Position numbers and translations under genes: made by a program
From: Picosynechococcus sp. PCC 7117
GTDB taxonomy: Bacteria; Cyanobacteriota; Cyanobacteriia; Cyanobacteriales; MRBY01
Length of the DNA: 64,000 nt
Assembly: GCF_001693275.1 (NCBI RefSeq)
Contig: NZ_CP016477.1
Span: 186,001 to 250,000 of the forward strand
Reading direction: 5' to 3'
The notes under the pieces: generated by a model
What the model was told of the DNA's origin: nothing
Database searches by the model: none
The model's input: only the letters and a program-made list of their open reading frames with translations
Part shown: one piece after another, positions 29,997-36,086 of the stretch
How the letters are laid out: every line of letters starts with the position of its first letter
How positions within the stretch are numbered: position 1 is the stretch's first letter

Positions 29997-30488
29997 ATGG
30001 CCATTTCCCATGCGGTTCCTGCGGATAAACGTTTTCGGGTGCTGGAAGTCGCCATGAAACGGAATCAATATCGCCAAGATACTCTGATCGAGATTCTGCA
30101 CAAGGCCCAGGAAGTCTTTGGTTACCTCGAAGATGAGGTGCTTGAATACGTGGCGCGGGGGTTAAAACTGCCCCTCAGTCGAGTGTACGGGGTGGCGACG
30201 TTTTATCATTTATTTTCTTTAAAGCCGAAAGGAAAACATACCTGTGTCGTCTGTTTGGGGACGGCATGCTATGTGAAAGGCTCCCAAGAACTCCTCGATA
30301 AAATTGATGAAACTCTCCACATTAAACCGGGGGAAACAACCCCTGATGATCAAATTTCTTTGGTGACGGCGCGCTGTATTGGAGCCTGTGGGATTGCGCC
30401 GGCGGTGGTTTATGACGATGAGGTGTGCGGCAAACAGAACGCTGAGCAGGTGATGGCAAGGCTTCAGCAGTTATCTGAAGGAAGTTAA
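29997..30488 (+). CDS. hoxE: bidirectional hydrogenase diaphorase subunit HoxE
   Basis: A 163-residue thioredoxin-like [2Fe-2S] protein of the NuoE family. The four cluster cysteines lie in CLGTACYVKG and CIGACGIAPAV. In the Hox complex HoxE helps pass electrons between the diaphorase (HoxFU) and NAD(P)H or ferredoxin/flavodoxin. ATG at 29997. It opens the operon hoxE-F-U-Y-CBS/CP12-H-W-hypA-B-F-C-D; the following gap of 56 bases to hoxF is short enough for co-transcription. Confidence 0.96.
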   Translation: MAISHAVPADKRFRVLEVAMKRNQYRQDTLIEILHKAQEVFGYLEDEVLEYVARGLKLPLSRVYGVATFYHLFSLKPKGKHTCVVCLGTACYVKGSQELLDKIDETLHIKPGETTPDDQISLVTARCIGACGIAPAVVYDDEVCGKQNAEQVMARLQQLSEGS

Positions 30489-30544: not shown

Positions 30545-32149
30545 ATGACAGATTTAGCGGAATTGTTTGAAATTGCTGAGGCGGAACAGGATAGCCATCG
30601 GAAAATTCAGATTCGCTGTTGTACGGCGGCGGGTTGTATGTCCTCTGGGAGTTTGGCGGTAAAAGAAGAGATTGAGAAACGGATTAAAGAAAAAAATTTG
30701 GGCGATCGCCTGGAGGTGGTTCCCGTCGGTTGCATGAAACTCTGTGGGTTTGCGCCGTTGGTGGATGTGAGCGATGAGACTTGTTTCCAGCAGGTGATGC
30801 CAGAAGTTGCCCCAGAGATCGTCGATGTAGTATTGGGGGAAACGCCCTCGAATAAGCTGGAAATTTGCGATCGCCAAGCGCCATTTTTCACATTACAAAA
30901 ACCCGTGGTGCTGGAAAATAGCGGCAAAATTGACCCCGAACGGATTGAGGCCTATATCGCCCGGGGCGGCTATCGGTCATTGCACCAAGTGCTCGAAGAC
31001 ATGACCCCGATGGCAGTCGTCGAAGAAATCACCCAGAGCGGGCTACGGGGGCGCGGCGGCGGCGGTTATCCCACAGGCTTAAAATGGGCCACTGTCGCGA
31101 AAATGCCGGGGGATCAAAAATATGTCGTCTGTAACGCCGACGAGGGGGATCCGGGGGCATTCATGGATCGGGCGGTGCTCGAAAGTGACCCCCACCGCGT
31201 CCTCGAAGGGATGGCGATCGCCGGCTATGCCGTGGGCGCAAACCACGGATATATTTACATTCGGGCAGAATATCCCCTCGCGATCCAACGCCTCGAAAAA
31301 GCAATCAAACAGGCTAAGAGCAAAGGTTTACTCGGTAGCCAGATTTTTAATTCCCCCTTCAATTTCACCATCGACATCCGCATTGGCGCAGGGGCATTCG
31401 TTTGTGGCGAAGAAACCGCCCTAATTGCCTCCATCGAAGGCGGACGGGGAACCCCCAGACCTAGACCTCCCTACCCCGCCCAGTCCGGACTATGGGGACA
31501 TCCCACCCTAATTAATAATGTCGAAACCTACGCCAACATCGTCCCGATCATCCGTGAAGGGGCAGACTGGTTTAGCAGCATCGGCACCGAAAAAAGCAAA
31601 GGCACAAAAGTCTTTGCCCTCACCGGAAAAGTGAAAAATAATGGCTTAATCGAAGTGCCAATGGGAACCCCTGTCCGACAAATTGTCGAGCAAATGGGCG
31701 GTGGCATCCCCGACGGCGGCACAGTCAAATCCGTCCAAACCGGAGGGCCCTCCGGCGGTTGTATTCCGGCGGACTACCTTGATACGCCTATTGAATATGA
31801 TTCCTTGATCAAACTCGGCACAATGATGGGTTCCGGCGGCATGATCGTCATGGACGAAGCCACTAGCATGGTTGATGTGGCGAAGTTTTACATGGAATTT
31901 TGTCAGTGCGAATCCTGCGGTAAATGTATCCCCTGCCGTGCTGGAACGGTGCAGATGTCGGGACTGTTAAGCAAAATGCTCAAGGGACAGGCTGCCCCCA
32001 AGGATATCGAACTGCTCGAACAACTTTGTCACATGGTCAAGGACGCGAGTTTATGTGGGTTAGGACAGAGTGCGCCCAATCCAATTTTGAGTACCCTGCG
32101 CTATTTCCGCGCGGAATATGATGCCTTCGTGGGGAGTAACGCCGATTAA
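30545..32149 (+). CDS. hoxF: bidirectional hydrogenase NAD(P)-binding diaphorase subunit HoxF
   Basis: A 534-residue NuoF-like subunit. The N-terminal ferredoxin-like part has [11 protein letters not shown] and GCMKLCG (2Fe-2S), the middle holds the FMN/NAD(P)H site ([30 protein letters not shown]), and the C terminus has the [4Fe-4S] motif [13 protein letters not shown] with the fourth cysteine about 40 residues later. The enzyme exchanges electrons with the nicotinamide pool in the cytoplasm or at the membrane. ATG at 30545, with a GGGAAAG-like ribosome site. Confidence 0.97.
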
Positions 32150-32219: not shown

Positions 32220-32936
32220 ATGGCAGTCAACACCTTAACGATAAATGATCAGCTAATCAGCGCCCGTGCTGGGGAAACGATCCTTGAAGCCGCCCGTGAT
32301 GCGGGGATTCACATTCCGACCCTGTGCCATCTGGAGGGGGTGTCCGATGTGGGAGCTTGTCGCCTCTGTCTCGTGGAAATTGAGGGGAGTAATAAACTCC
32401 AGCCCGCCTGTGTGACGGAGGTGATGGAGGGGATGGTTGTCCAGACCCACACAGAAAAATTAGAAGAATATCGTCGGATGACGGTGGAATTGCTCTTCGC
32501 GGAAGGGAACCATGTTTGTGCCGTCTGTGTGGCGAATGGCAATTGTGAGTTGCAGGATATGGCGGTGGAGGTGGGGATGGATCATTCGCGCTTTCCGTAC
32601 CAATATCCAAAACGGGAGGTGGATATTTCCCACAAGCAATTTGGCATTGACCATAATCGCTGTATCCTTTGCACCCGCTGTGTTCGGGTCTGTGATGAGA
32701 TCGAGGGGGCGCACGTCTGGGATGTGGCAAATCGGGGTGGTGAATCGAAAATTGTCTCTGGTTTAAATCAGCCTTGGGGGGCGGTGGATGCCTGTACGAG
32801 TTGTGGCAAATGTGTGGATGCTTGTCCAACGGGATCGATTTTCCGCAAGGGAGCTACAGTAGGCAGTAAACTCGGTGATCGCCAAAAACTCGAATTTTTA
32901 ATTACCGCACGTACAAAAGGGGAGTGGACAAGATAA
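32220..32936 (+). CDS. hoxU: bidirectional hydrogenase diaphorase subunit HoxU
   Basis: A 238-residue NuoG-like iron-sulfur subunit that wires HoxF to HoxY. Cysteine motifs in order: plant-type [2Fe-2S] ([15 protein letters not shown] and a later Cys), the His-Cys3 cluster ([12 protein letters not shown]), and two [4Fe-4S] ferredoxin motifs ([11 protein letters not shown] and [15 protein letters not shown]). The stop overlaps the start of hoxY by one base (TAATG at 32934-32938), implying translational coupling. Confidence 0.97.
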
Positions 32937-33502
32937 TGGCGCAAGAAACCCAAGAAAAAATTCGGTTTGCAACAATTTGGTTGGCGGGTTGTTCCGGTTG
33001 TCACATGTCATTTTTAGACCTCGATGAATTTTTAATTGAGTTGACAAAATATGTGGATGTGGTCTTTAGTCCCGTCGGTTCCGATGTCAAAGATTACCCT
33101 AAAAATGTCGATGTTTGTCTCATTGAAGGGGCTGTTGCTAACCAAGAAAATTTGGAATTATTAGAAAAAGTTCGCCAAAATACAAAGCTATTAATTGCCT
33201 TTGGGGACTGTGCCGTAACGACCAATGTCACGGGCATTCGTAACCAAAAAGGTGATGCCCAAACCATTTTAGAACGGGGCTATAAAGAACTCACTGAAGA
33301 ACACCAATTACCCCAACAAATTACCGGAGGAATTTTGCCGCCCTTATTACCCAGAGTTTTGCCCATCCATGAAGTCGTTGATATCGATTTATTTCTCCCC
33401 GGTTGCCCCCCCGATGCCGACCGAATTAAAGCGGCGATCGCCCCCTTATTAGAAGGAAAATTGCCGGAAATGGAAGGACGAGAAATGATCAAATTCGGCT
33501 AG
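32936..33502 (+). CDS. hoxY: NiFe hydrogenase small subunit HoxY
   Basis: A 188-residue small subunit of group 3d NiFe hydrogenase. It carries the proximal [4Fe-4S] cluster, with cysteines in WLAGCSGCHMSFL, in FGDCAV and in FLPGCPPDADRI. It is truncated relative to uptake-type small subunits, lacking the twin-arginine signal and the extra clusters, which is normal for HoxY. ATG at 32936 overlaps the hoxU stop by one base; the longer GTG frame at 32924 is less likely. Confidence 0.97.
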   Translation: MAQETQEKIRFATIWLAGCSGCHMSFLDLDEFLIELTKYVDVVFSPVGSDVKDYPKNVDVCLIEGAVANQENLELLEKVRQNTKLLIAFGDCAVTTNVTGIRNQKGDAQTILERGYKELTEEHQLPQQITGGILPPLLPRVLPIHEVVDIDLFLPGCPPDADRIKAAIAPLLEGKLPEMEGREMIKFG

Positions 33503-33507
33503 ATTTT

Positions 33508-34152
33508 ATGTCCCAAACATTTGCCATGCTGACTGCCGCCGATATCATGAATCCCAATGTGGTGACCATCAAAGGTTTAGCGACCATTGCCAGTGCCACC
33601 CAATGTATGCGAGTGAATAAAACCCGTGTATTAATAGTTGATCGTCGCCATGTTCACGATGCCTACGGCATTTTGACCGCCACCGATATCGTCAGTAAAG
33701 TGATCGCCTATGGTCGTGATCCAAGGGCAATACGGGTCTATGAAATTATGACCAAACCTTGCATTTTCGTGAGTCCCGATCTGGCGGTTGAATATGTTGC
33801 CCGCCTATTTAGCCAATGGAATTTGCACAGTGCCCCCGTCATGACTGACAAACTTTTAGGGATAATTACCGTTGAAGATTTAATTAGCAAAAGTGATTTT
33901 TTAGAACGTCCCAAAGAACTATTATTTGCCGCAGAAATGCAAGCCGCCATTCAACAAGCAAAATTAATCTGTCAAGAAAAAGGATATGATTCGAGTGACT
34001 GTATTCAAGCATGGGCAATGGTGGAAGAACTACAAGCTGAAACCGCCTACCAACAATCCCAAAAAGTGGACAAAACCGCCCTTGAAGAATATTTAGAAAA
34101 AAATCCAGAAGCCATCGATCATTTAATGGTTGACAATTGGTGTAGTGGTTAA
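33508..34152 (+). CDS. CBS-domain protein with CP12-like C-terminal domain
   Basis: A 214-residue protein. Residues about 8-130 are two CBS domains (TAADIMNPNVVTI, GILTATDIVSKVIAYG; then YEIMTKPCIFVS, GIITVEDLISKSDF), which usually bind adenine nucleotides. Residues about 145-208 resemble CP12: Cys155 and Cys165 with nine residues between, then the core AWAMVEELQAE (168-178; CP12 consensus AWxxVEEL) and LEEYLEKNPEA. The C-terminal Cys pair that CP12 uses against GAPDH is absent (Leu/His there; a lone Cys at 212). CBS-CP12 fusions are known in cyanobacteria. It sits in the hox operon, five bases after hoxY, 78 before hoxH, so redox or energy control of hydrogenase or carbon flow is an inference. 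Confidence 0.85.
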   Translation: MSQTFAMLTAADIMNPNVVTIKGLATIASATQCMRVNKTRVLIVDRRHVHDAYGILTATDIVSKVIAYGRDPRAIRVYEIMTKPCIFVSPDLAVEYVARLFSQWNLHSAPVMTDKLLGIITVEDLISKSDFLERPKELLFAAEMQAAIQQAKLICQEKGYDSSDCIQAWAMVEELQAETAYQQSQKVDKTALEEYLEKNPEAIDHLMVDNWCSG

Positions 34153-34230: not shown

Positions 34231-35655
34231 ATGTCTAAAACAATCATTATTGATCCCGTAACTCGCATCGAAGGACATGCCAAAATTTCCATTTATCTAG
34301 ATGATCAAGGGGAAGTGAATGAAGCCCGTTTTCATGTAGGGGAATTTCGGGGGTTTGAGAAATTTTGTGAAGGTCGTCCTTTCTGGGAAATGCCCGCCTT
34401 AACTTCCCGAATCTGTGGCATTTGTCCCGTCAGTCACCTAATTGCATCCTCAAAAACAGGGGATCAATTATTAGCTGTAAAAATTCCTGCAGCGGCAGAA
34501 AAATTACGGCGAATGATTAATCTTGCCCAGATTACCCAATCCCATGCCCTCAGTTTTTTCCACCTCAGTAGTCCTGATTTAATCTTTGGTTGGGACGGCG
34601 ATCCAAAGACGAGAAATGTATTTGGTTTAATTGCCGCTGATCCTGATTTAGCACGGGGTGGAATTCGTCTAAGAAAATTTGGACAGGACATTATTAAAAT
34701 CCTTGGGAGCCAAAAAGTTCACCCCGCCTGGTCAATCCCCGGTGGTGTGCGATCATCGCTAACAAAAGAAGGACAAACTTACATTAAAGAGGGTTTATCG
34801 GAAGCAAAAAATACCGTTAAAAATGCCCTGAGTTTATTTAAAAAAATTCTTGACTCCCATCAGGAAGAAGTGGCAGTTTTCGGCAATTTTCCGAGTCTTT
34901 ATCTCGGCTTAGTGGGCGAGTCCGGTGCATGGGAACATTATGGCGGCATTTTGCGAATGATCGATAGCCACGGCAATATTGTGGGCGATCGCCTTGATCC
35001 GAACAATTACCGTGAATTTCTTGGGGAAAAATTACAGGAAGATTCCTACTTAAAATCCCCCTATTACAAACTTTTTGGCGAAACGGGTGTTTACCGCGTC
35101 GGGCCTTTAGCACGGCTAAATATTTGTGAACATTTTGGCACAGAAGCCGCTGATCAAGAACTGATTGAATATCGACAACGGCACGGCAAAATTGTGCAGG
35201 CTTCCTTTGTTTATCACCATGCCAGACTGATTGAAATATTAGGTTCCCTCGAAAGAATTGAGCGGATGATTGATGATCCCGATTTATTTTCTAATCGTTT
35301 ACAAGCAGAGGCGGGGGTCAATCAAACCGAAGCTGTTGGTGTGAGTGAAGCACCACGAGGAACCCTATTTCACCATTATCAAGTGGATGAAAATGGACTG
35401 CTTCAAAAAATTAATTTAGTGATTGCTACGGGACAAAACAATTTTGCGATTAACCGTACTGTGACCCAAATTGCCAAGCATTATATTCATGGTGAAAATG
35501 TCGCCGAAGGTATTTTAAATCGGGTAGAAGCTGGGGTGAGAAATTATGATCCTTGTTTGAGTTGTTCAACCCATGCCGCCGGACAAATGCCGATGATTTT
35601 ACAATTAATTTCCCCTGATGGTTCCATTGTCAAAGAAATTCGTCGTGATAGTTAA
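34231..35655 (+). CDS. hoxH: NiFe hydrogenase large subunit HoxH
   Basis: A 474-residue precursor of the catalytic NiFe subunit. The NiFe ligands are Cys62 and Cys65 in [10 protein letters not shown] near the N terminus, and Cys442 and Cys445 in DPCLSCSTH near the C terminus. After His448 there are 26 extra residues that the endoprotease removes once nickel is in place. The downstream hoxW is the expected protease. ATG at 34231, ribosome site AGGAG. The stop overlaps the hoxW start by one base. Confidence 0.98.
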
Positions 35656-36086
35656 TGAAACAAACTTTAATGATTGGTTACGGCAATACATTACGCTCTG
35701 ATGATGGAGCTGGACAAAAGGTTGCGGAAGCTTTTTTTGATCAGGAAAAGATAAAGGCGATCGCCACCCATCAACTCACCCCTGAATTAGTGGAAGATTT
35801 GTTACAAGTGAAGCAGGTTTACTTTATCGATGCAGCTCCCGTTAAGACCGTAACGATTAAACCTATTCAACGGAGAGATAATGAACACAATTTTGGACAT
35901 TTTATTGACCCCAAAAGCCTTTTGAATTTAGCCCAAGAAATTTATCATTATGTGCCCGATGCTTACTTAGTTTTAATCCCTGCCCAAGATTTTAAACTGG
36001 GGGAAAGCTATTCTGATATAACCCAAAAAGCAATCGAAACAGCGATTCATCTTTTGCAAGAACGACTCACACCATGCATGAAGTAG
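35655..36086 (+). CDS. hoxW: HoxH-specific maturation endopeptidase HoxW
   Basis: A 143-residue member of the hydrogenase maturation protease (HybD/HycI) family. It has the N-terminal GYGNTLRSDDGAG motif, with the nickel-binding Asp, and later hydrophobic strands typical of the fold. It removes the HoxH C-terminal tail after NiFe assembly. It begins at the last base of hoxH and overlaps hypA by 13 bases, so it is translated from the same messenger. Confidence 0.93.
   Translation: MKQTLMIGYGNTLRSDDGAGQKVAEAFFDQEKIKAIATHQLTPELVEDLLQVKQVYFIDAAPVKTVTIKPIQRRDNEHNFGHFIDPKSLLNLAQEIYHYVPDAYLVLIPAQDFKLGESYSDITQKAIETAIHLLQERLTPCMK

Follow-up and report, generated by a model that had tools for sequence, protein, structure and literature searches.

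The CBS-CP12 gene of a cyanobacterial hox operon: a WCSG-tailed variant and putative regulator of the bidirectional hydrogenase

Described CP12 and CBS-CP12 proteins

The CBS-CP12 fusion family, in which two CBS domains are followed by a CP12 domain, is already known. Its member from Microcystis aeruginosa (PDB 5nmu, 5npl, 5nvd) is hexameric and is reported, in the passages of later papers that cite Hackenberg 2018, to bind AMP (PMC9406205) and to inhibit the activation of PRK without forming a ternary complex (PMC9406205, PMC9514657). From Synechococcus PCC 7002 the CBS-CP12 protein A0199 was unable to replace CP12 in Synechocystis (PMC9514657). The class CP12-N-CBS (Stanley et al. 2013) comprises, according to passages of a review, CBS fusions with the N-terminal cysteine pair only; it rests on cysteines, and in these passages a WCSG ending, the loss of AWD or a link to hox is not mentioned (PMC3906501). 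By these cysteines the protein described here, a CBS fusion with only the N-terminal pair, belongs to the class as it is worded there. The Synechococcus protein that exemplifies the class is possibly the ortholog from PCC 7002. In the open literature we found no link of CBS-CP12 to hox; Stanley 2013 and Hackenberg 2018 may mention one. Within this known family the subtype tied to Hox appears to be a new variant.

The protein in question is encoded in the hox operon of Picosynechococcus sp. PCC 7117, within the window (the whole stretch of 64,000 nucleotides that was analyzed). It passes the Pfam cut-offs for CBS and CP12 and shares domain order and fold with the Microcystis protein, its closest solved relative (5nmu, phmmer 2.2e-63 over residues 7-208); the Microcystis structures are also the best Foldseek matches of its model (E 7e-23, 54-55% identity). 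By gene number and position A0199 is probably its ortholog. A near-identical copy of the solved Microcystis protein (L173) has, unlike the window protein, four CP12 cysteines, AWD and no WCSG, and it adjoins a thioredoxin gene instead of hox. With canonical CP12, the switch of GAPDH and PRK, the window protein has the CP12 fold, the N-terminal cysteine pair and the VEEL core in common, but it differs in the absence of the C-terminal pair used for GAPDH binding, in AWA, in the CBS pair and in the added WCSG.

The hox operon and its CBS-CP12 gene

The operon has the order hoxE-F-U-Y-(CBS-CP12)-H-W-hypA-hypB-hypF. The names of hoxE, F, U, Y, H and of the hoxW-type gene come from Pfam or NCBIfam, those of the hyp genes from translation and position only.

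29997..30488, + strand: hoxE (Pfam 2Fe-2S_thioredx, 4.5e-48)
30545..32149, + strand: hoxF (Pfam Complex1_51K, 8.4e-49)
32220..32936, + strand: hoxU (Pfam Fer2_4 and NADH-G_4Fe-4S_3)
32924..33502, + strand: hoxY, small hydrogenase subunit (Pfam Oxidored_q6, 9.9e-27)
33508..34152, + strand: gene of the CBS-CBS-CP12 protein, 214 amino acids, ATG start (open reading frame, domains, sequence and structure matches)
33541..33885, + strand: two CBS domains, about residues 12-126 (Pfam CBS, 2.7e-19, in two stretches)
33934..34128, + strand: CP12 domain, residues 143-207 (Pfam CP12, 1.8e-18)
33970..34002, + strand: N-terminal CP12 pair Cys155 and Cys165, their codons at the two ends of the stretch
34009..34032, + strand: core AWAMVEEL, residues 168-175, with the aspartate of canonical AWD replaced by alanine and VEEL kept
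34138..34149, + strand: C-terminal W-C-S-G extension with Cys212, beyond the usual end of CP12
34231..35655, + strand: hoxH, large NiFe subunit (Pfam NiFeSe_Hases, 7.9e-29)
35655..36086, + strand: hoxW-type hydrogenase maturation protease in the hoxW position (NCBIfam TIGR00072, over cut-off)

The reading frame starts 5 nt past the hoxY stop and ends 78 nt ahead of hoxH, and no terminator-like site was found on the + strand of the hoxY-hoxH interval. The gene is under strong purifying selection, its dN/dS compared with a congener (G231) being 0.031 and thus as low as that of hoxU (0.034) and hoxH (0.042). A phage origin was considered and rejected, as there was no phage match.

A first-pass annotation had described two CBS domains and a CP12-like tail with AWAMVEEL, encoded between hoxY and hoxH, and had staked its reading on a CP12 profile match of this tail; the domain and flanking gene assignments bear this out, and the CP12 match is strong (67.5 bits, cut-off 22.7). 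Its N-terminal pair is present and invariant in an alignment of 21 sequences, and the C-terminal pair is missing as it had said, YC...EC of canonical CP12 being replaced by YL...DH. Cys212 is not equivalent to these canonical C-terminal cysteines. The replacement of AWD by AWA, Cys212 in WCSG and the membership of a distinct subtype go beyond that annotation. GhhTxxD is an adenine-nucleotide motif, and each CBS domain carries one (GILTATD and GIITVED), with G54, D60, G118 and D124 invariant in the same alignment. In the AlphaFold2 model (pLDDT 88.7) the CP12 part forms a helical hairpin (136-158 and 163-182), and residues 212-214 are of low confidence. Apart from the one in the hox operon the host genome has a single CP12 gene, which is canonical and encodes four cysteines. 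A 4.7-kb plasmid of this host shows 91.5% identity to a PCC 7002 plasmid over 81% of its length, in line with the assignment to Picosynechococcus.

Distribution among Cyanobacteriia

The survey covered 390 genomes of Cyanobacteriia, and hoxH was detected in 126 of them (125 at E 1e-100 and one partial copy). A first pass based on CBS-CP12 matches gave 35 genomes with a copy at most 30 kb from hoxH on the same contig, most of these copies immediately preceding hoxH in the same orientation. With a CP12 profile applied to the hox loci, a CP12-domain gene was found in the hox cluster of 49 of the 126 hoxH genomes (15 families) and between hoxY and hoxH in 44 genomes (12 families). This profile was built here from the sequences of this study and a sample of its matches was checked with Pfam; one counted genome (G141) was assigned by a tblastn match and its translation. 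Assuming five CP12 genes per 5 Mb, about 0.8 genomes with such a gene within 3 kb are expected by chance. The operon position is therefore not accidental, and the linkage beyond chance on which the first-pass annotation had relied is seen across related genomes. Because of the kinship among genomes these counts are not independent, and the number of families is a more reliable guide. In most of the 126 hoxH genomes, including two Synechocystis-like ones, no CP12 gene was found in the hox cluster, which means that it is not essential to the Hox enzyme.

Four forms occupy the slot between hoxY and hoxH, namely CBS-CP12 proteins ending like EARxYDL (mostly in Nostocaceae-type genomes), CBS-CP12 proteins ending in WCSG (the window, Prochloron and others), short divergent CBS-CP12 proteins adjoining hoxY, and stand-alone CP12 proteins of 72-82 amino acids. 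All seven stand-alone proteins of hox clusters that were checked pass Pfam CP12 (8e-23 to 6e-29). On an Acaryochloris plasmid with hoxEFU-Y-H this slot holds two CBS-CP12 genes; each product passes Pfam CP12 and one of them ends in WCSG.

The WCSG-tailed subtype

In the alignment of 21 sequences 15 tailed proteins reach four residues past the six untailed ones. A scan of all 390 genomes with the pattern [DE]-x-W-C-S-G-stop matched, in long frames, CBS-CP12 proteins and a single CBS protein that has no CP12. After addition of the spellings FCSG, WCAG and WCGG from fetched loci there were 30 genomes with a tailed CBS-CP12. Each of these 30 (tails WC[SAG]G or FCSG) has hoxH, versus 96 of the other 360 genomes (Fisher p 1.4e-16, a statistic that ignores phylogeny), and in several of them hoxH is present with the CBS-CP12 gene lying away from hox. 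The window protein, with its WCSG ending and hoxH in the genome, fits this proposed Hox-associated subtype.

When non-W endings such as LCSG are included, 40 distinct xC[SAG]G-tailed proteins are available. The N-terminal cysteine pair is kept in 39 of them and the GAPDH-type C-terminal pair in none; AWD is kept in eight, versus 106 of 141 other CBS-CP12 proteins (12 of the remainder were not scorable). It is also kept in the hox-linked CP12s of Nostocaceae-type genomes and in stand-alone CP12s. In the reconstructed tree the tail occurs in two lineages, each with hox-linked members. A single clade of all tailed proteins is rejected (p-AU 0.0012), while 19 tailed rows are compatible with one clade (p 0.70) if the forms of Calothrix and of G276, which group with Nostoc-type hox-linked CBS-CP12, are left out.

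The CBS protein without CP12 mentioned above ends in YDNWCSG (L200:1451-1945) and belongs to a genome with no detectable hoxH (G191); in another, incomplete genome (G200) a CBS-CP12 ends in NLCSG and hoxH was not detected. The tail is thus not strictly a mark of Hox. That WCSG is simply a common protein ending was rejected, as the sole other match spelled with AGY or TCN codons in the host (L209) terminates none of the listed open reading frames and three matches in other genomes sit in very short frames. A comparison of Hox subunit columns between tailed and untailed genomes revealed no residue or cysteine that segregates cleanly as the mark of a binding site, the best column having a total-variation score of about 0.6 that is confounded by phylogeny.

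Possible function

The presence of hoxH throughout the genomes with tailed CBS-CP12 suggests that the protein senses redox state and energy to regulate hydrogen metabolism and is not an ordinary CP12 of the Calvin cycle. We give an even chance to the reading that the window gene encodes a regulator dedicated to the bidirectional Hox hydrogenase which senses adenylates and thiols, the direct target being deduced from gene context. The CBS pair would bind an adenylate, a property reported of the Microcystis homolog, and the pair Cys155/Cys165 would open or close the CP12 hairpin with the redox state of the cell. The mobile tail ending in WCSG may dock on a Hox subunit, possibly via Cys212, and this docking would tune activity or stability of the hydrogenase as light, oxygen and energy charge shift. 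The usual means of holding GAPDH are lost and binding of PRK is probably poor, which is why we propose a CP12 with changed target. How Hox is switched between making and using H2 in cyanobacteria is unsettled, and Synechocystis, in which much of the work on Hox was done, appears to have no CP12 gene at its hox locus. An operon-encoded regulator that reads energy charge and thiol state would open H2 production to experimental tests and would extend the action of CP12 beyond the Calvin cycle.

The first-pass annotation had suggested a regulator that ties hydrogen metabolism to energy charge or to the state of the Calvin cycle. The former part has gained from the GhhTxxD motifs of both CBS domains and from the AMP binding ascribed to Microcystis CBS-CP12 in the cited passages (PMC9406205). 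The latter has become weaker in view of the missing GAPDH-type pair, the AWA core, the separate four-cysteine CP12 of the host and the failure of the PCC 7002 protein, probably the ortholog, to replace CP12 in Synechocystis (PMC9514657). The main rival nevertheless lies here: the protein might bind AMP and restrain PRK like its Microcystis relative, so that carbon fixation slows down whenever cells produce the hydrogenase in darkness or anoxia. We regard this as unlikely. It agrees with the activities reported for the Microcystis protein (PMC9406205, PMC9514657), with the N-terminal pair and VEEL kept in the window protein, and with AWDxVEE kept in many hox-linked CP12s of other shapes. However, the window protein has AWA in place of AWD, and most of its tailed relatives lack AWD too. 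A four-cysteine CP12 is already present in the host, and PRK as target would not account for the co-occurrence of the tail with hoxH in genomes where the two are unlinked.

Two further explanations retain the hox context. Instead of regulating activity, the protein might assist in building or protecting the enzyme, e.g., by serving HoxY or HoxH as redox-gated chaperone or thiol donor in maturation or after damage by oxygen. This would suit a gene near hoxH, hoxW and the hyp genes, as well as Roseofilum-like loci where CBS-CP12 follows hypB by 42-59 bp; the Hox enzyme of Synechocystis is reportedly reactivated and stabilized by glutathione (PMC11780932). Sensing of adenylates by CBS domains is atypical of a chaperone, and many hox operons do without a CP12 gene, so that such a role is distinctly improbable. 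Alternatively, a general redox and energy sensor could simply be co-expressed with hox and have no specific target in the hydrogenase. Some CBS-CP12 genes do lie at a distance from hox or downstream of it, and other genes have been inserted in hox operons, e.g., the VapBC-like pair of Synechocystis-like genomes. Yet the recurrent use of one slot in 12 families by several architectures and the association of unlinked tailed forms with hoxH make mere co-expression very unlikely compared with a dedicated regulator of Hox.

Other CBS-CP12 clades and hox loci

Of 15 CBS-CP12 rows that form a supported clade, ten have neighbours typical of nif clusters (hesA, hesB, fdxB, cupin or mod genes), two of these ten being assigned by cupin alone; a near-copy of one member that is outside the tree (L194) has such neighbours too, and the nif cluster of a Pseudanabaena plasmid contains a related CBS-CP12. 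This subgroup has the architecture of the window protein and is likewise placed among the genes of a low-potential enzyme, here a different one, but it differs in core and tail sequences, has often lost the cysteines and has no WCSG. Together with the four-cysteine CBS-CP12 genes that lie by thioredoxin or ferredoxin genes, this suggests that there may be one CBS-CP12 paralog per electron system. A set in which WCSG-tailed or hox-linked forms serve Hox, a second form nitrogenase, and four-cysteine forms thioredoxin, ferredoxin and the Calvin cycle is a tentative and somewhat doubtful assignment; if true, CP12 would serve generally as a module that switches with redox state and energy and whose targets can be exchanged.

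CBS-CP12 genes adjoining nif genes, with cysteines often lost, were seen in L172, L176, L179, L180, L181, L193, L194 and L195, and further ones in L196, L199, L201 and L352:8001-8642. Others, many with four cysteines, lie near a gene of plant-type 2Fe-2S ferredoxin and/or thioredoxin (L042, L044, L064, L069, L076, and also L173, L175, L178, L182, L189-L191, L198).

Some hox loci have a peculiar gene content. In the Synechocystis-like genomes two small genes, VapBC-like by eye, lie between hoxY and hoxH (L211:5292-6013, L212:6316-7037), and this pair of toxin-antitoxin type occupies the place of the CP12 gene. In Roseofilum and a related genome (L010, L012, L015) CBS-CP12 is located 42-59 bp downstream of hypB on contigs with hoxW-, hypA- and hypB-like genes from which hoxH is absent. 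In L249:8874-10998 and L217:966-2993 hoxH and hoxW are separated by three genes, the products being a small protein that contains cysteine, a PAS protein and a phosphatase of SpoIIE type; Pfam identified the latter two in L249. Finally, a cluster in L222:4919-11746 combines hoxY with hoxU, a HoxE/F-like fusion, a molybdopterin oxidoreductase of 932 amino acids (formate dehydrogenase-like) and an FdhD gene, and it possibly represents a formate-linked hydrogenase.
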